Shown here in pieces: positions 1 to 39,297 of a stretch of DNA of 39,297 nucleotides; the first letter of the stretch is position 1, and each line of letters begins with the position of its first letter. Location: the IMG/VR virus record IMGVR_UViG_3300008469_000008, positions 1-39,297 of that record; one strand, given 5' to 3'. The DNA is from a virus. Position numbers and translations under genes: made by a program. Below the pieces are notes generated by a model. That model searched no databases and was not told the DNA's origin. It was given only the letters and a program-made list of their open reading frames with translations.

Positions 1-99
1 TACCTAAAACATCGACCGGCAGTAATGGTCTAGGTAAACCTAATATCTCGCCTAACCCATCTAGTTGGCTACATATCGCATTATCTAATAAGCGGTTAT
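1..99. repeat. Left copy of 99-bp end overlap (circular contig)
   Basis: These 99 bases are repeated exactly at 39199-39297. Removing one copy joins the two ends in frame through the DUF2612 tail gene, which shows that the molecule is circular or circularly permuted and was cut at an arbitrary point. The length is the kind of overlap left by a k-mer assembler, and the repeat lies inside a coding region, so it should not be read as a packaged terminal repeat. Confidence 0.95.
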
Positions 100-1381: not shown

Positions 1382-1741
1382 TCATATTCCTAAATTTATT
1401 GTTTGATTTACAATTATACCATTATTTTGTATAACTTCGAAACTTACTAATAATGATTTATTACCTGTATTGGGTAATAGTGATAATATATTCAATTTCT
1501 TAACATTATCTGTATTTTTAATTTCATTTCTAAATATACTGTAAACAACAGCCAGATTTGTACCTTTTTCGAAAATAGTTTGTGGGTAGGGTATCCCCGC
1601 AGTATTATCTAAAAACCATTCATTCAATATAAATTGGAGTCGAATTAATAGATCCTGTATAACCTCATTATCTGTAGTTGTTAGAGTTAGATCTTGATTA
1701 GTAACAAATAGATCATGGTCATCGTCTAATGCTAAATCCAT
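1382..1741 (-). CDS. gp25-like baseplate wedge protein
   Basis: This 119-residue protein resembles the GPW/gp25 family (also called DUF2634), a small wedge component that starts sheath polymerisation around the tail tube. The N-terminus (DLALDDDHDLFVTNQDLTLT) and the segment LNEWFLDNTAGIPYPQTIFEKG are characteristic: an acidic start, then the W-F-G-P region where the T4 protein has its conserved motif. It lies directly before baseplate J as in most myoviruses. It has its own L-type promoter element at 1760-1768 and a clear AAAAGGAG ribosome binding site 5 nt before the ATG. Confidence 0.85.
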   Translation of the reverse strand: MDLALDDDHDLFVTNQDLTLTTTDNEVIQDLLIRLQFILNEWFLDNTAGIPYPQTIFEKGTNLAVVYSIFRNEIKNTDNVKKLNILSLLPNTGNKSLLVSFEVIQNNGIIVNQTINLGI

Positions 1742-1759
1742 ATTAACTCCTTTTCGTAT

Positions 1760-1768
1760 ATTGTATCA
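1760..1768 (-). promoter_or_regulatory. L-type late promoter element TGATACAAT
   Basis: On the minus strand this reads TGATACAAT, an extended -10 (TGn before a -10 hexamer). It lies 18 nt before the gp25-like ATG, in a gap between genes. The same nonamer precedes late genes at 12313, 12964 and 17182. No obvious -35 hexamer is present. Confidence 0.6.
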
Positions 1769-1788
1769 AAAATTAAAGTCTTTTGATA

Positions 1789-2466
1789 TTAAACCAGAGG
1801 TGCGGTATTCGCCCCACCAGAAGTTACTCCCCCATGAACATGATCTTTGACCTCAGCCGTACCGATTTTAAGACTTGTTGCAGCTTCAATTGTCGGTGCC
1901 GTGATCTTACCTGTTACCTCTAAATCATTATTAATAATAGTTTTAGCACTTGTTATTTCAGTATTGGCCGTTGTCTCCATCAATACCGTACCATCGGTTT
2001 TTAAAGTAATCTTAGAATTACCGTTCGTACTTTTTATAACCATATTATCTGGATCAAAATTCTCAATCTTTTGAGTTTGTGAATAAAGGACCGGAACTAT
2101 AAAAGCGTCGGATAAATCAAATTTTCTTGTATCATTCGGTGATTGTATACCACCATCTTCGAGCCAATTATCAATAGATCTTTCAATTACATAGATTGAA
2201 ACTTCATCACCTTCCTTTAATGGAAAAGTTATTGTAAAGTCTCCAGATTTTAGAAATCTTACGGGAATTTTACTTAACACAGGTAAATTTACAAGCTCAC
2301 TATCAATATTCCTTTGAAGCTCCGGTTGTACATCAGCAAGTTGTTCTACTGGATCGAACGAGATTATCTGACCTGGCAAAATCGTATGAACATCTTTTAA
2401 ATATGTATTAATAGCTACGGCCAAAACACTTTCGAGACTAGCTCTTCTATCTTCTGTTCCTGGCAT
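1789..2466 (-). CDS. Baseplate central spike, Gp138-like
   Basis: This 225-residue protein looks like the small membrane-piercing spike of simple contractile tails (Gp138 N-terminal/gpV-like family). Residues about 25-110 form an OB-fold-like region (DVHTILPGQIISFDP through the KEGDEVSIYVIERSIDNW segment). Residues about 145-205 are Thr/Ile-rich repeating strands expected of a trimeric beta-helix (KSTNGNSKITLKTDGTV, then short I-T-A repeats). The C-terminus has VKDHVHGG, whose His-x-His could bind the apical metal ion seen in several phage spikes; that is inference. It overlaps the hub gene by 1 nt. Confidence 0.8.
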   Translation of the reverse strand: MPGTEDRRASLESVLAVAINTYLKDVHTILPGQIISFDPVEQLADVQPELQRNIDSELVNLPVLSKIPVRFLKSGDFTITFPLKEGDEVSIYVIERSIDNWLEDGGIQSPNDTRKFDLSDAFIVPVLYSQTQKIENFDPDNMVIKSTNGNSKITLKTDGTVLMETTANTEITSAKTIINNDLEVTGKITAPTIEAATSLKIGTAEVKDHVHGGVTSGGANTAPLV

Positions 2467-3338
2467 TAGAATTTCCTTGCTTCAATATTTGAAAACCAAT
2501 CATTTGAATGTGTATCACCTACATGATTAATCTTATCCGTACGGTATATACCGACACCTACAGTTGTGGGTACTTTTCTAAAGATTAAATTACCAATATT
2601 AATCTTCGAACTTATAGATTTTATCTCAATCCTTCGACCTAGTTTCAATTGAGGTAGTAATAATGATTTAACTTTTATTCCAACCTCCGTCAATTCAGGA
2701 CTGGCTATCATCCCGTTAGATTGACTTAATTCGATAGATGGTTCATCAGTTAGTGGTTTATCCTTAGTTGTTGTTTCAATAACACTATTATTAATGGAAT
2801 AGTCAAATCCACAATTCTGAGCTAATTTGTCGAGCCAATCTTTTACATTACCTGTTAAGACCAATCTCCGTAGTAATGATCTCTTTTTAGTTAAGCAATC
2901 TTTCAGGCCTTCAGTAACACCTTTTGTAACACCATCCATTTGCCCTATAAGCTCATTAAATATGCTTTCAGTAGTTTGACCTGGTGGAAGTGATTTATTG
3001 ATTGTAGAGCTATTTATCGATTGAATAGCGTCACCACAAAATAAATTTGTAATCCAATCTGTACCGTTTTTCTCATGTGTAACGTTTACTATATTACCCG
3101 AGAATATCAAAGCTATACTTTCTTCATATCCTGCATACAGATAAATCTTTGTAAATTCCTCTTTAATCTTGTTACGATTAGACTTATTGAGATTATATAT
3201 TTGTATGGATCCTGTACTAGGGTAACCGACAAGTGATAGTTCGATATTGAATGAAATTCTCAAATCGGTTATTTCGAGTCCACCTGAACCAGGTTCACCT
3301 ACAATTAATCTAACTTTTCGAATAAAGAAATTAGCCAT
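2466..3338 (-). CDS. Baseplate hub protein (gp27/gpD-like)
   Basis: This 290-residue protein occupies the hub position between the plug and the spike and has the expected all-beta pattern. The N-terminal half carries NIELSLVGYPSTGSIQIYNL and a following YLYAGYEESIALIFSGNI segment, which is typical of hub proteins in which GY...G strands form the first tube-like domain. Residues about 160-200 (VKDWLDKLAQNCGFDYSIN) match the second domain of gpD/gp44-type hubs. It would form the trimer joining tail tube to spike. The ATG overlaps the plug gene by 8 nt. Assignment rests on pattern and gene order. Confidence 0.75.
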   Translation of the reverse strand: MANFFIRKVRLIVGEPGSGGLEITDLRISFNIELSLVGYPSTGSIQIYNLNKSNRNKIKEEFTKIYLYAGYEESIALIFSGNIVNVTHEKNGTDWITNLFCGDAIQSINSSTINKSLPPGQTTESIFNELIGQMDGVTKGVTEGLKDCLTKKRSLLRRLVLTGNVKDWLDKLAQNCGFDYSINNSVIETTTKDKPLTDEPSIELSQSNGMIASPELTEVGIKVKSLLLPQLKLGRRIEIKSISSKINIGNLIFRKVPTTVGVGIYRTDKINHVGDTHSNDWFSNIEARKF

Positions 3339-32306: not shown

Positions 32307-32544
32307 TGATTGCTTCGAAGAATTTGAAGCTGAAAATAAAAAAGTTACTGTATGTAAAAATTGTAAGCCTGAATTTGAACCATTCACTTCGGCTGATAAA
32401 ACTGGAAGTATCTGGCAATTAGTTCATACTAGGGGTTTTAAGTCTCAAGATGAGATTGATTACTATCAGTTTGTTAAGTCTGAACATAAAAGACTTTGTG
32501 GTAAAGATCTACCAAAAGTTAAAGAAATTGTAAAAGGAAAATAA
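32290..32544 (+). CDS. Zinc-ribbon protein (84 aa)
   Basis: This 84-residue protein begins MIKMCDDCFEEFEAENKKVT and then has CKNC, giving two CxxC pairs 12 residues apart, a compact zinc ribbon. The rest (SIWQLVHTRGFKSQDEIDYY and a KSEHKRLCGKDLPK end) is helical. Such proteins often bind nucleic acid or act as adaptors. The start ATG overlaps the previous gene. Confidence 0.65.
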   Translation: MIKMCDDCFEEFEAENKKVTVCKNCKPEFEPFTSADKTGSIWQLVHTRGFKSQDEIDYYQFVKSEHKRLCGKDLPKVKEIVKGK

Positions 32545-32864
32545 TGAGTAAAGATCAATTGAAAGAAGTTCAAAAAGAACGTGGTAATGTTTATGGTAAA
32601 TTTATAGATCATTCTCGAGCTGTTGATAAAATAGTTGATATTTTGAAAGATGTAAATATTCGTAAGAATGGATCTAAAGGTTTTGAAGATTGGCCTGAAG
32701 GTTTTGAAACATCAGCTTTTTATATGGTTAGTAAATTAGTTCGATTGGCTACTACACCAGATCATATAGATAGTGCTTTAGATCTTAGTAGTTATGCAGA
32801 TTTGTGGCTTAAAATTATTGAGGAGCAAGTTGATGAAACAAGCAATAAAAATTCTAAGAACTAA
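32544..32864 (+). CDS. DUF6378-like all-helical phage protein
   Basis: This 106-residue protein has the pattern of DUF6378: KERGNVYGKFIDHSRAVDKI near the start, MVSKLVRLATTPDHIDSALD, then LSSYADLWLKII. The order 'RG..YG', 'KL.RL...P.H.DS..D..sYA' is typical. The fold appears all-alpha and it may be related to MazG-type NTP pyrophosphatases; I have no proof of that. It overlaps the thymidylate-synthase-like gene by 32 nt, so translation is probably coupled. Confidence 0.65.
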   Translation: MSKDQLKEVQKERGNVYGKFIDHSRAVDKIVDILKDVNIRKNGSKGFEDWPEGFETSAFYMVSKLVRLATTPDHIDSALDLSSYADLWLKIIEEQVDETSNKNSKN

Positions 32865-33540
32865 TCTTCTTAGAAACGGTAAAGTTGTAAAGACTAAAAA
32901 ATGGCAAGGTATTGAAAATCCACCTGAGTTCTTGGAATTACTCCATGCTAGAATTATGATACCTATGTCACAGACTATACCTGAAATGGTTAAAGAGGCA
33001 CAACCGATGTTACCCTGGGCTGATATTCATTTCGAAGAACGAGTTGGGGGTCTACCATTAAATCCCCCACCTAGTCATAAGTTGTGGTTAAAAGGTAATG
33101 ATGAATATATGAGTGGTGATAAATTTAGTCATTCGTATCCCGAAAGATTTTGGAGTAAAGATCTTCATACCGGTATTCGTTTTCCAATTGGTGATCTAAG
33201 TGATCTAATCAATTTGTTAAAGGATCAACCCGATACTCGTCAGGCATATTTACCTATATATTTCCCAGAAGATATTGCAGCAGCTGTGATTGGTGAGCGA
33301 ATACCTTGTACACTTGGTTTTCATTTTATAGTCCGTAATGGTAAGCTCGATTTATTTTATCCGATGAGAAGTTGTGATGTTATTCGCCACATGCATAATG
33401 ATTTATATATGGCTAATCGATTGGCACTATATGTAAAAGAGCAAGCTGGTCTAGAGGTTACTCTCGGAAATATCCATTTTGTAGCTACATCATTACATTG
33501 TTTTACAAATGATCGTTACGCTATTGAAAAGGCTATATGA
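32833..33540 (+). CDS. Thymidylate synthase-family dCMP hydroxymethylase (predicted)
   Basis: The ATG at 32833 has AGGAG 7 nt upstream, giving 235 residues. From Cys159 on it aligns without gaps to E. coli ThyA: IPCTLGFHFIVRNGKL and MRSCDV match PCH..FQFYVADGKL and QRSCDV. Cys159 is the nucleophile, Arg179 and Ser180 bind phosphate. The ThyA Asn177 position is Asp190 (HMHNDLYMA against LGLPFNIAS). An Asp at this site distinguishes T4 dCMP hydroxymethylase from thymidylate synthase, because it pairs with the amino group of cytosine. It would therefore make 5-hydroxymethyl-dCMP (or a related adduct) with methylene-tetrahydrofolate. Its stop overlaps the AsnB-like ATG. Confidence 0.8.
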   Translation: MKQAIKILRTNLLRNGKVVKTKKWQGIENPPEFLELLHARIMIPMSQTIPEMVKEAQPMLPWADIHFEERVGGLPLNPPPSHKLWLKGNDEYMSGDKFSHSYPERFWSKDLHTGIRFPIGDLSDLINLLKDQPDTRQAYLPIYFPEDIAAAVIGERIPCTLGFHFIVRNGKLDLFYPMRSCDVIRHMHNDLYMANRLALYVKEQAGLEVTLGNIHFVATSLHCFTNDRYAIEKAI

Positions 33541-34820
33541 TGTGCGGGATAATGCTAACAAATAAAAAGTATGATGGCTCGATGAGTCATCGAGGTACTC
33601 GTCAAAGAAAATTGAAAGATCAAAATTCGGGCCTTACATTTATTCATGAACATTTAGCTATACAGGCTCCACAAGGTTATCAAAGTATTATTGAAACTGA
33701 TCGCTATGTTATATTATTTAATGGTGAGTTATTCGTTGATGGCTATGATAATGATTTAGAGTATATTAAAGATATATTTAGCAGCAGATCATTGATCGGT
33801 GCAGTCGACGCTATATCACATCAGGATGGATTTTACTCATTTATAATTTATGATAATCTCCATGATAATGTGATTTGTTTTACAGATCCTTTAGGTAAGA
33901 AACAATTATACTATTCTGACAACGGTATAGCTTCTGAATTACGACCTTTAGACAAAGGCCCAGTTAATCACCTGCATTTATCTAAAACGATAAAATTTGG
34001 CTATGTTACGGACGACTCAACACCATATACAAATATAAAAAGAGTTATGCCAAATCGCATATATAGATTTGATAATGATTTACAGTTTGAATGGTCAAGT
34101 GAACCTTACTATCAATTTAAAGAAGTTGATACCGATCAAGTTGATTTGTATGACCTGATCGGTCAAGCTGTCAAGAATAGATTGAAAGGTCATGAATCAG
34201 TTGGTTTGCTTTTATCTGGTGGACTTGACTCATCAATAATCGCACATCACGCTAAAGATCAAATTGCCAATTCATATTGTGTTGATAATCTAGATGATCT
34301 AGCTTACGCCAATTATATTGATCCAAAAGTAAAAGCGATATTCATTGAAAATCACGATGAGGCTTTAGCTGCTATGGAAATGCCAGTTGATCTCGGTAGT
34401 TTATATCCACAATATTCACTATTCTCTGAAGTGAGTGAAACAGTTGTTCTGACCGGTGATGGTGCTGATGAAGCTTTTGGTGGATACAGACGCATGCTGG
34501 AATATGACTCACAACTATCTGATATTTTTGATGAATTACCTTTTTATCATAATATCCGAATTGACCGCATGTCAATGATACATACTAAAGAGTGTAGAAG
34601 TCCTTTTATGAGTCTACCGGTTATCGAATATGCTATGAGCTTGCCGTACAGTGACCGTGTGAATAAGAAGCATTTACGTGAGAGGTATGATCACATTCTA
34701 CCTGATCGAATTGTTAATCGACCAAAAGAGCCTTTGAAAACTGACACTATCAGATCAAAAAATGGCGTTCAATATCGTAAGCAGCTAGTTGATAAATGGC
34801 TTGAAGGGATTAAGTCATGA
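33540..34820 (+). CDS. AsnB-like glutamine amidotransferase/synthetase
   Basis: I start at 33540 so that Cys2 (MCGIM) becomes the N-terminal nucleophile after Met removal; an ATG 3 nt earlier would block it. The glutaminase half has HRG, LFNGEL and DGFYSF of class II amidotransferases. The synthetase half has the ATP PP-loop SGGLDSS and LTGDGADEAFGGYRRM, and ECRSPFM matching the AsnB family ERxPF. Both domains are complete at 426 residues, shorter than cellular AsnB (about 550). It should move ammonia from glutamine to an AMP-activated carboxylate. It is coupled by overlap to the hydroxymethylase (ATGATG) and to the deaminase (ATGA), which points to nucleotide or DNA modification and not to asparagine supply. 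Confidence 0.85.
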   Translation: MCGIMLTNKKYDGSMSHRGTRQRKLKDQNSGLTFIHEHLAIQAPQGYQSIIETDRYVILFNGELFVDGYDNDLEYIKDIFSSRSLIGAVDAISHQDGFYSFIIYDNLHDNVICFTDPLGKKQLYYSDNGIASELRPLDKGPVNHLHLSKTIKFGYVTDDSTPYTNIKRVMPNRIYRFDNDLQFEWSSEPYYQFKEVDTDQVDLYDLIGQAVKNRLKGHESVGLLLSGGLDSSIIAHHAKDQIANSYCVDNLDDLAYANYIDPKVKAIFIENHDEALAAMEMPVDLGSLYPQYSLFSEVSETVVLTGDGADEAFGGYRRMLEYDSQLSDIFDELPFYHNIRIDRMSMIHTKECRSPFMSLPVIEYAMSLPYSDRVNKKHLRERYDHILPDRIVNRPKEPLKTDTIRSKNGVQYRKQLVDKWLEGIKS

Positions 34821-35320
34821 GTAAAATTAATTCTGTAATGATGAGGACAGCTCACAATTTCGCTTCACTATCATCAGCCAATCGTAAAAAGGTTGGTGCT
34901 GTACTTAGTAATAATGGTCGGATCGTAGCCTGTGGTTATAATGGGACTATACCTGGAGCTGATAATAAGTGTGAAATAGTCTGCCAAGATTGTGATGGGT
35001 ATAAACTTAGTGGTAAACCTAAATGGCAAGATAATCAATATATTGAGTCTACCTGTAAACGTTGTGGTGGTCAGGGTGAAGTTACAAGTGAGTTCGTATT
35101 ACATGCTGAACAGAATATATTAACCTTCTGTAATCGTGAAGGTTTAAAAACTGACGGTTGTACACTATATGTAACCATGGCACCTTGCAAGACTTGTTCA
35201 AAGTTGATCGTGTCTGCAGGTATAAAAGAAGTTTTTTACGATGAAGAATATCGTGATTTAAGTGGGGTTCAATTTCTAAAAGATATTGGATTAAAAGTAG
35301 AACAAATAAAAGGAAATTGA
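34817..35320 (+). CDS. dCMP deaminase with Cys-rich insert
   Basis: This 167-residue protein is a dCMP/cytidine deaminase: ACGYNGTIPGADN, HAEQN (zinc ligand His96, proton shuttle Glu98) and APCKTC (Cys124, Cys127) are complete. Between the first strand and the HAE motif it has an insertion with C52-x3-C56-x2-C59 and C80-x2-C83 (the second half CKRCGGQGE resembles DnaJ-type fingers), giving a second metal site. In T4 the deaminase shifts dCMP to dUMP, balancing the pool for thymidylate and hydroxymethyl-C. The start overlaps AsnB-like by ATGA. Confidence 0.9.
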   Translation: MSKINSVMMRTAHNFASLSSANRKKVGAVLSNNGRIVACGYNGTIPGADNKCEIVCQDCDGYKLSGKPKWQDNQYIESTCKRCGGQGEVTSEFVLHAEQNILTFCNREGLKTDGCTLYVTMAPCKTCSKLIVSAGIKEVFYDEEYRDLSGVQFLKDIGLKVEQIKGN

Positions 35321-35321
35321 A

Positions 35322-35822
35322 ATGAAAAAATATACTAATGATGAGTTACAGGTATTGACTAGCCAATGGGGTCATGATAGAAAAATAACTATCAATGGAA
35401 AGATACCTACACAAACGATTAAATTTGGTGAAGAAATGGCGGAATTATTCGAAGCCGAAACTCCTGACGATGTAAAAGACGCTATCGGTGACATGATTGT
35501 AGTGATCTCGATGATTTGTGATCTTAATGGTACTGCTATTATGGAAATTAATAGAATTGAAGAACTTTATACATCTAGACCATATAACCAAGAAGCCAAT
35601 CTAGTTGTCATGTATGGTAAACTTTGTAAATCAGTAGTTCGTGAAGATGATCAATTAAATAATATTCTGGCCAATATATTACACGCTTTAGATGATATTT
35701 GCTCCGAAAAAGATTTAGATCTAAATGGGTGTTGGAACCTGGCTTATGATGAAATCAAAGATCGTACAGGTACACTTCTTGAAAATGGTAATTTTGTAAA
35801 AGATGAAGATCTTGGTAATTAA
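35322..35822 (+). CDS. MazG-like nucleotide pyrophosphohydrolase
   Basis: This 166-residue all-alpha protein has the MazG signature KFGEEMAELFEAETPDDVKD and AIGDMIVVISMICD (E-x2-x-E ... E/D-x2-D). A C-terminal segment ending EIKDRTGTLLENGNFVKDED is typical of the phage version. MazG-like enzymes split NTPs or dNTPs to the monophosphate. T4 gp56 (dCTPase) shares this fold and removes normal dCTP so that hydroxymethyl-C is used; here the neighbours make a dCTPase-type role plausible but unproved. A second, degenerate half-repeat (residues about 85-140) lacks the Glu pair. Confidence 0.8.
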   Translation: MKKYTNDELQVLTSQWGHDRKITINGKIPTQTIKFGEEMAELFEAETPDDVKDAIGDMIVVISMICDLNGTAIMEINRIEELYTSRPYNQEANLVVMYGKLCKSVVREDDQLNNILANILHALDDICSEKDLDLNGCWNLAYDEIKDRTGTLLENGNFVKDEDLGN

Positions 35823-36252
35823 GCCTTATATCAATCCATACTATTTAACCGTTATCGACGATATGATAAATATACTCGATAACAGTGAACCAGGTAAACG
35901 CCGATGGACTCATGATGAGGTCACCGGTTTACCAAACTACTCGGCAACCACCAGGAGTACATTTCCCGATTGGTCCAAATTCTTTTATGTCAAAACTCCA
36001 AAAGATAGATATATTGATTACTGTATAGTAAATGGGCCTAAGCCGCACGATCACGGTTATTTCAATGGTAATACTAAAGAGCTCAAAAGAATACTTAATA
36101 ACTCAAAAGATGGTGTATTATCAAATTATGATCGTATACAAAAAGCCTGGGAGATTGCCGTATCTGGATTTTTAGATGATCTTGCTGATTTTGAGGAACT
36201 TCATGGTGAAAGATATTACCCTGATGAGGTCTATGAAGATTTTCCTTTTTAA
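35803..36252 (+). CDS. Unrecognised protein at operon end
   Basis: This 149-residue protein overlaps the MazG-like gene by 20 nt and ends the P4 operon. It starts MKILVIKPYINPYYLTVIDD, has an Arg/Trp/Thr-rich middle (GKRRWTHDEVTGLPNYSATT) and PKPHDHGYFNG, and an acidic Tyr/Asp/Glu C-terminus. The His-Asp-His of PHDHG is conspicuous but I cannot link it to a family. Its coupling to the nucleotide enzymes suggests a related task. Confidence 0.65.
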   Translation: MKILVIKPYINPYYLTVIDDMINILDNSEPGKRRWTHDEVTGLPNYSATTRSTFPDWSKFFYVKTPKDRYIDYCIVNGPKPHDHGYFNGNTKELKRILNNSKDGVLSNYDRIQKAWEIAVSGFLDDLADFEELHGERYYPDEVYEDFPF

Positions 36253-38749: not shown

Positions 38750-39297
38750 TTAAATAGTGGTAGCGAAATTGCCACCAAGTTCCGTATTATTAATATCTGT
38801 AAATCCTTTTGCATCGGGATCACTAAAAAAACCAAAACCATCAAAGGCATCTATTGATATGTATTCAATATACCCCAATCCGATTAGGGTCGGTAATAAG
38901 TCTAATAGTTCTATTTCTGAAGCATCTAGGACCTTTTCAATCGTGTATTGTGGAAATAAATTTATATTTAGAGTATATCTAACCCTAGCACCGTCCAACA
39001 TAAATGATAACATCTTAATTGTTTCTTCAACCGTAGATGACGAGCCATTAATAATTGCCTTAGCCCTTAACAATTTACGATATACCTCGTCATTAGCAAT
39101 TTGAGTTGTTGCATCATAATCTACAAAATTTCCACCAATTGTAGGATTATTAATATCACCAAATGACCTTGATGTAGGATCTGCAAAAAATCCAAATTTA
39201 CCTAAAACATCGACCGGCAGTAATGGTCTAGGTAAACCTAATATCTCGCCTAACCCATCTAGTTGGCTACATATCGCATTATCTAATAAGCGGTTAT
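38750..39297 (-). CDS. DUF2612 tail protein, C-terminal part (continued from 1-232)
   Basis: This is the rest of the 226-residue protein that begins at 232 and crosses the contig join; bases 39199-39297 are the second copy of the overlap. The full protein contains the same motif twice: residues 78-101 have GKFGFFADPTSRSFGDINN and 198-221 have GFGFFSDPDAKGFTDINN, each followed by an ...GGNF stretch. The segment between them is helical (AKAIINGSSSTVEETIKMLS). DUF2612 proteins are commonly encoded between baseplate J and the fibre. The tail fibre gene follows after 12 nt. Confidence 0.85.
   Translation of the reverse strand, partial: NRLLDNAICSQLDGLGEILGLPRPLLPVDVLGKFGFFADPTSRSFGDINNPTIGGNFVDYDATTQIANDEVYRKLLRAKAIINGSSSTVEETIKMLSFMLDGARVRYTLNINLFPQYTIEKVLDASEIELLDLLPTLIGLGYIEYISIDAFDGFGFFSDPDAKGFTDINNTELGGNFATTI
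39199..39297. repeat. Right copy of 99-bp end overlap
   Basis: Exact copy of bases 1-99, produced by cutting a circular assembly. It lies in the DUF2612 coding sequence and should be removed once when the genome is closed. Confidence 0.95.

Follow-up and report, generated by a model that had tools for sequence, protein, structure and literature searches.

Which cytosine derivative could be made by a thymidylate synthase (TS) homologue and an AsnB-like glutamine amidotransferase that are encoded back to back in a virus? The question is raised by the IMG/VR virus record IMGVR_UViG_3300008469_000008, here analysed over all of its 39,297 nucleotides (the window), in which the two genes are followed by those for a dCMP deaminase family protein and a MazG-like pyrophosphohydrolase. 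A sequence-only reading of this DNA had taken the four genes as a cassette for a modified cytosine that carries an amide; from that interpretation the cytosine-specific TS homologue and the AsnB-like amidotransferase coupled to it were upheld, whilst the assignment as a hydroxymethylase is not certain. The best reading is that the genes form a TS-based module that would run parallel to the CmoA-CmoX-CmoY pathway and yet be distinct from it, and a two-step outline, namely a cytosine-specific TS product followed by glutamine-dependent addition of nitrogen, appears fairly likely. If true, this would provide a TS-based route to an amide-bearing cytosine beside that of CmoX, which was published in 2025. 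The modified cytosine could make the virus less visible to bacterial defence systems; the interest of new bases lies in restriction evasion, in the specificity of type IV defence and in their use as tools.

Recurrent linkage of TS and AsnB genes

A single AsnB query returned 211 relatives from IMG/VR, of which the best 80 were taken, together with the best 80 of at least 578 TS matches and the best 80 of 516 CmoX matches; each sample comprises the closest relatives of its query and is not a random draw. Six contigs were left out as repeats of counted contigs or fragments (L001, L006, L012, L018, L020 and L024), and collapsing loci that share more than 60% of their AsnB 5-mers gave 58 AsnB loci: 53 were reached by AsnB queries, the others being the window and four loci reached only via the TS or C5-cytosine methyltransferase (C5-MTase) queries (L004, L014, L015 and L017). 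A TS gene is present in 51 of the 53 non-redundant loci, and in the two TS-less loci the AsnB gene starts at contig base 2 or 78. Within the set of 58, TS is found in 56 loci, always on the same strand as AsnB (56/56) and at a distance of 60 nt or less in 33 of these pairs. Starting from TS, AsnB was present in 39 of 44 non-redundant loci (33 of the 39 within 60 nt); three of the five AsnB-less loci reach the contig end within 500 nt, L109 has no AsnB and L116 differs. In L116, a gene adjoining TS (588-1613) starts with MSGI and resembles, by eye, a decayed AsnB without PP-loop; it has no Pfam match and was not counted as such.

Thus the search for other phages with adjacent ThyA(Asp) and AsnB-like genes, as proposed in the sequence-only reading, returned them from both directions, and the coupling reaches far beyond the window. 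The four-gene set is not a chance neighbourhood and recurs in divergent phages: a deaminase cluster is present in 26 of the 58 loci, and 46 encode a member of one of five small clusters taken, partly by eye, as MazG-like or DUF6378-like. Neither the window AsnB nor that of the divergent contig L002 (E 1e-3) gave a tblastn match in 50,697 phage records, whilst the TS protein matches 210 records of this collection, 90 of them over at least 80% of its length. As the AsnB searches returned nothing from these records against 211 relatives from IMG/VR, the module appears to belong to a large portion of phage diversity that is uncultured; among open-licence papers, none on the TS-AsnB pair was found. 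Conserved oxidoreductases or pyridoxal phosphate enzymes were not noticed by eye near the pair among the matches listed, and a family 2 glycosyltransferase occurs in 2 of 18 records, the window not among them. What looks by eye like a nucleotide kinase gene is found close to the TS and AsnB genes, or between them, in L050, L051, L060, L067 and L076, which would fit synthesis of the modified base at the nucleotide level.

Residues of the TS homologue and the AsnB-like enzyme

Alignment to E. coli ThyA and T4 gp42 placed an Asp at ThyA position 177, as had been read from the sequence before: Cys159, Thr160, Asp182, His186, Asp190 and Phe224 of the window protein correspond to ThyA positions 146, 147, 169, 173, 177 and 209. 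Across 76 TS homologues, Trp80, Tyr94, Arg126, Cys146, Arg166, Asp169, Asp177 and His207 (ThyA numbering) are invariant; position 147 is Thr in 59 and Ser in 17, position 173 is His in 75, including the window protein, and not the T4-type Gly, and position 209 is Phe in 66. PMC8670742 describes positions 177 and 147 as marking phage contigs with modified cytosine. Since Cys146, Thr/Ser147 and Asp177 are found in 76/76 homologues, the substrate is predicted to be cytosine, in the form of dCMP, with modification at C5. Of the earlier prediction of a dCMP hydroxymethylase, the cytosine specificity therefore stands (Cys146, Thr147 and Asp177 as in T4 gp42), whilst the hydroxymethylase activity is not certain, given His173, the mostly conserved Phe209 and a tie of 5-hydroxy-dCMP synthase and MilA in fold and profile. 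The structure model (predicted local distance difference test score 94.7) gave Z of about 20-21, with more than 200 residues aligned, against TS-fold chains: the phage dCMP hydroxylase 9iqc (Z 21.6, root-mean-square deviation 2.4, 208 residues aligned) was tied with ThyA (Z 21.5) and MilA (Z 20.6), and the profile matches to the RB69-type enzyme and to MilA were likewise tied (63.7 vs 63.2 bits). T4 gp42 was not among the structure-comparison rows listed, which is no evidence of a difference. The RB69 enzyme is identified as a 5-hydroxy-dCMP synthase in PMC13390438. For the window enzyme 5-hydroxymethyl-dCMP would be the most likely product, 5-hydroxy-dCMP a possible one.

An ordinary thymidylate synthase was considered and rejected on the basis of Asp177 and Thr147 and of ThyX-like genes, which were named by eye in 8 of the 58 loci and in whose presence dTMP synthesis does not depend on the TS homologue. 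On L182, a contig of 3.9 kb from the bin of a Lokiarchaeota metagenome-assembled genome (MAG), the TS homologue is directly followed (1428-3176) by a family 34 glycosyltransferase (PF05637, 57.1 bits): this fits a hydroxymethyl or a hydroxyl product, both carrying an OH, and L182 is perhaps a virus contig with glycosylated cytosine. A conserved hypothetical gene just 5' of the TS gene resembles, by eye, a second, diverged TS paralogue in L010 (7075-7968; Mycobacterium phage Muddy), L009 (6820-7881; Streptomyces phage KimJongPhill) and L184 (7802-8845; MAG contig). The upstream genes of L010 and L009 have no Pfam match; in all three contigs, TS and this putative paralogue could form a heterodimeric dCMP-modifying enzyme.

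In case of the AsnB-like protein, the earlier description as an intact glutamine amidotransferase is borne out by the residues of its glutaminase and ATP sites: a glutaminase domain, in which Cys is the second residue counted from the second ATG, is joined to a synthetase domain with the PP-loop SGGLDSS. Among the 57 sequences of at least 380 amino acids (one of the 58 is shorter), the glutaminase Cys1 is present in 56, and the PP-loop Ser/Asp, Asp351, Glu352 and Lys449 in all. Equally constant (57/57) are changes of the pocket relative to E. coli AsnB, i.e. Glu348 to Asp, Asp384 to His and Thr321-Thr322 to Gly-Ser, and only 30 residues follow Lys449 in the window protein vs 104 in E. coli AsnB. 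The NCBIfam cut-offs are not reached for TIGR01536 (155.6 bits, cut-off 267.1) or PRK09431 (112.5 bits, cut-off 499). According to PMC6748925, Glu-364 and Asp-367 of human asparagine synthetase bind the aspartyl group and the variants E364A, E364Q and D367A are inactive; the equivalence of human and AsnB positions was assigned by motif. The acid cluster is thus altered only in part, and the substrate is likely other than aspartate. A GAT-QueC enzyme of 7-deazaguanine synthesis was rejected: PF00733 and PF13537 were matched and there was no QueC match.

Methyltransferases and the source of the carboxylate

AsnB chemistry as known requires a carboxylate. Its best candidate donor in the window phage would be the C5-MTase homologue encoded there, which the sequence-only reading did not mention, acting with carboxy-S-adenosylmethionine (carboxy-SAM) from the host. 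This protein exhibits Cys76 (motif IV HDDC), Asp116 (motif VI DNL in place of ENV) and Lys313 (motif X GK in place of GN). In L002 the C5-MTase gene stands between the other two, 5 nt after TS and 1 nt before AsnB, and L003 has the gene order of the window. A search with the C5-MTase family gave nine loci, with TS in all nine and AsnB in seven, and overall the gene lies 60 nt or less from AsnB or TS in 9 of 14 loci; in the phage collection only two weak matches were found (21-25% identity). Among 18 non-identical homologues (L030, L031 and L034 being one group), the catalytic Cys is present in all, motif VI Glu is replaced by Asp in 17, and motif X, in the column of CmoX Arg350, has Lys in 17 and Arg in one. 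As a control, 24 C5-MTases from other genomes all have Glu in motif VI, and motif X reads Asn in 19, Lys in one and Asp in one of 21 readable sequences (three unread).

An N6/N4-type methyltransferase (PF01555, 36.9 bits) was tried as a universal third enzyme and alternative carboxylate donor and was rejected as optional: it or a C5-MTase is present in 30 of the 58 loci and both in 4, the two types are scattered over the AsnB tree, and no N6/N4-type gene was found in the window. It accompanies the TS-AsnB pair in L022 (9307-10185) and relatives, 20 of 45 records, with the DPPY motif mostly altered (e.g. NGTPYP, TGSPYP) and NPPY in L014 and L015.

The precedent for carboxymethylation is described in PMC12783734: CmoX of Synechococcus phage S-B43 binds the carboxyl group of carboxy-SAM via Arg350, the engineered M.MpeI N374K does likewise with Lys, and CmoA-CmoX-CmoY places an AsnB-like ligase on cytosine in phage DNA; a second ligase cluster has a glutaminase domain, although its proteins were not obtained in soluble form. 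Since that survey demanded SPPC and Arg350, the Lys-type C5-MTase clade would fall outside it. As a control we examined 80 close relatives of S-B43 CmoX, a narrow sample (86-97% identical): motif X is Arg in all 80, CmoA is present in 63 and an AsnB-type match in 53 (40 over 400 amino acids), with TS and N6/N4-type MTase found in none of the 80. S-B43 CmoY, whose substrate is DNA, is without a glutaminase domain. The larger CmoX-linked AsnB proteins (17 non-redundant) carry Glu348, Ser350, Asn384 and Thr76, where the TS-linked proteins have Asp348, Ala350, His384 and Glu76. By these residues, AsnB-like ligases appear to have been recruited to cytosine modification in at least two forms, with the TS-linked one as a separate subfamily.

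From gene content, residues and recurrent linkage we infer the chemistry of a five-step scheme for a cytosine hypermodification module that ends in glutamine-dependent amidation, a tentative proposal to which we give clearly less than an even chance. The MazG-like enzyme and the dCMP deaminase would hold unmodified dCTP and dCMP low (step 1); the TS homologue would add a hydroxyl-bearing group to C5 of dCMP, most likely 5-hydroxymethyl and possibly 5-hydroxy (step 2); the modified nucleotide would take the place of cytosine in phage DNA (step 3); the C5-MTase homologue would then carboxymethylate the C5 side chain with carboxy-SAM, assumed to be made by the host because no CmoA was detected in the phage (step 4); and the AsnB-like enzyme would adenylate the carboxylate with ATP and aminate it with ammonia from glutamine, giving a primary amide (step 5). 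Steps 2 and 5 are best supported in outline and step 4 is the weakest. Several observations weigh against the scheme, most of them at this step. If cytosine is fully replaced, C5 is already blocked for a C5-MTase. The step leans on a putative CmoA of the host: a search of genome contigs for the host gave three MAG contigs only, and CmoA (TIGR00740) was over cut-off in 0/45 records, with nothing in the window. The C5-MTase homologue, which is found in only 14 of 58 AsnB loci, departs from CmoX in each of its hallmarks (SPPC, Glu in the ENV motif, Arg350). Moreover, three records with direct terminal repeats encode TS and AsnB without either MTase type (L038/G018, 34 nt; L060/G028, 99 nt; L086/G041, 127 nt), and AsnB therefore does not need step 4 everywhere; in such records the carboxylate would come with the TS product or from an enzyme of the host, or AsnB would attack something else. 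As to the other steps, the window has His173 vs Gly173 in both ThyA and T4 gp42, and the acidic cluster of AsnB is largely kept (Asp348, Asp351, Glu352), which leaves room for a free amino-acid substrate.

C5-MTases are able to react with 5-hydroxymethylcytosine in vitro. A reading that comes close to an even chance takes TS and AsnB as a widespread pathway that stands on its own and leads to a cytosine base not described before: TS would make a C5-modified dCMP, the AsnB-like enzyme would add the glutamine-derived nitrogen, and the C5-MTase homologues, in which Lys replaces Asn and Asp replaces Glu, would tailor the already C5-modified cytosine by transferring a Lys-bound carboxylate-bearing group instead of methyl. 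The repeat-ended records without an associated methyltransferase also fit a two-enzyme pathway in which AsnB acts without a carboxylate, activating the OH of the TS product or, in the manner of other PP-loop enzymes, a carbonyl of the ring, and adding ammonia to give, for example, aminomethyl-cytosine. The kept glutaminase and PP-loop residues agree with this, and carbonyl activation of the GMP synthetase type is established; however, known AsnB relatives act on carboxylates and we know of no alcohol adenylation in the family, so that this route seems unlikely. Of similarly low probability is the same module with TS as a flavin-dependent 5-hydroxy-dCMP synthase, where the group amidated by AsnB would be a carboxymethyl attached to the ring OH, comparable to cmo5U of tRNA. 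Here, 9iqc is the top structural row (although tied with ThyA and MilA), Phe209 is common to RB69 and the window, and such a synthase is described in PMC13390438; Asn169 and Val173 of RB69 are set against Asp169 and His173 in the window, and MilA scores equally.

Plain CmoX-type chemistry, with the C5-MTase homologue making 5-carboxymethylcytosine for amidation by AsnB and TS serving a separate nucleotide pathway, would draw on the precedent of CmoX and of the glutaminase-bearing ligase cluster (PMC12783734), on the basic residue in the Arg350 column and on AsnB-like open reading frames (ORFs) of over 400 amino acids in 40 of the 80 CmoX loci. We regard it as improbable: the constant partner of AsnB is TS (56/58) and not the C5-MTase (14/58), TS is absent from all 80 CmoX loci (in that narrow sample, at least 86% identical to S-B43 CmoX), and the CmoX-linked and TS-linked AsnB proteins differ at positions 76, 348, 350 and 384. 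Quite improbable, finally, are independent genes, i.e. 5-hydroxymethyl- or 5-hydroxycytosine from TS for restriction evasion, a C5-MTase that methylates residual cytosine and an AsnB that supplies asparagine or another free amide. The partly kept acid cluster and the ordinary nature of the individual families would suit this, yet AsnB recurrently overlaps TS or C5-MTase, stays below the NCBIfam asparagine-synthase cut-off and carries the Asp384 to His and Thr321-Thr322 to Gly-Ser changes in 57/57 sequences along with a short C-terminus (30 vs 104 residues), and Lys in motif X and Asp in motif VI are unlike ordinary C5-MTases.

Layout of the window and known systems

Table 1. Features of the module and of the record ends in the window.
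Feature	Position	Strand	Evidence
TS-fold homologue, 235 aa	32833..33540	+	PF00303 33.2 bits, cut-off 24.3
AsnB-like amidotransferase	33537..34820 (first ATG 33537, second ATG 33540)	+	PF00733 119.3 bits, PF13537 36.8 bits
dCMP deaminase family protein	34817..35320	+	PF00383 72.2 bits, cut-off 25; phrog_174 4.6e-48
MazG-like nucleotide pyrophosphohydrolase, possibly dCTPase	35322..35822	+	phrog_1992 4.2e-33; no Pfam match
C5-cytosine methyltransferase homologue, 385 aa	30747..31904	+	PF00145 77.3 bits, cut-off 22
Small DUF6378-like protein, directly upstream of the TS gene	32544..32864	+	PF19905 19.8 bits, cut-off 27.1; phrog_474 2e-10
Direct terminal repeat, two identical copies, 99 nt	1..99 and 39199..39297	.	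identical sequence at both ends
aa, amino acids.

ORFs, Pfam and PHROG matches located the four genes where they had been placed before, the deaminase and the MazG-like protein among them (Table 1). Overlapping stop and start codons had been claimed for three of the genes: this holds for TS/AsnB and AsnB/deaminase, whereas deaminase and MazG are separated by 1 nt. The TS gene starts at the ATG at 32833, preceded by GAGGAG; the mechanical ORF starts at 32794. The DUF6378-like gene, like the C5-MTase, is new to this analysis; its assignment is weak, with PF19905 below cut-off, and a related cluster occurs in 19 of the 58 loci, recurrently just 5' of the TS gene. Directly 3' of MazG lies a conserved small protein of no known family (window 35803-36252, L003 11228-11629), whose start in the window overlaps the MazG end. 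The identical repeat at both ends makes it probable that the record is a complete genome, with 39,198 bp in addition to the repeat. Genes for tail, capsid, terminase and portal proteins are present as well, together with a replication block; a tRNA search found none, the 38 window ORFs scanned with Pfam gave no glycosyltransferase or CmoA family, and megablast of the 30-38 kb region against phages gave no match.

The component families and the logic of phage base hypermodification are known, whilst the module is distinguished by its pairing of TS with AsnB, by the Lys-type C5-MTase clade and by the lack of CmoA, and clear, testable predictions follow from three cloned genes. Compared to CmoA-CmoX-CmoY of S-B43, the window shares a C5-MTase with a basic residue in place of HhaI Asn304 and an adjoining AsnB-like ligase, but differs in having Lys rather than Arg, HDDC rather than SPPC and Asp rather than Glu in motif VI, and in its TS partner, the lack of a detected CmoA and an AsnB of another lineage with a glutaminase domain. 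With the T4 pathway (gp42, gp56, cd and glucosyltransferases) it has in common the TS fold with Cys146, Thr147 and Asp177 and the adjoining pyrophosphohydrolase and dCMP deaminase, whereas gp42 has Gly173 and Tyr209 for His173 and Phe209 in the window, and the T4 glucosyltransferases contrast with an AsnB-like enzyme. The 5-hydroxy-dCMP synthase of Mosigvirus/RB69 (AfhB, 9iqc/9iqu) is alike in TS fold, Asp177, Thr147 and Phe209, but has Asn169, Val173 and Tyr80 where the window has Asp169, His173 and Trp80, and no arabinosyl pathway was seen in the window. According to PMC8670742, the MetaGPA system of uncultured phages likewise combines an Asp177 TS with an enzyme that adds a nitrogen-bearing group to cytosine, in that case a TobZ-like 5-hydroxymethylcytosine carbamoyltransferase using carbamoyl phosphate rather than an AsnB-like enzyme. 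Finally, E. coli AsnB and the N-acetylglutaminylglutamine and XrtA/PEP-CTERM amidotransferases share the combination of glutaminase and PP-loop synthetase domains, but the window protein scores far under the cut-off of each of these families and differs in its altered pocket and short C-terminus.

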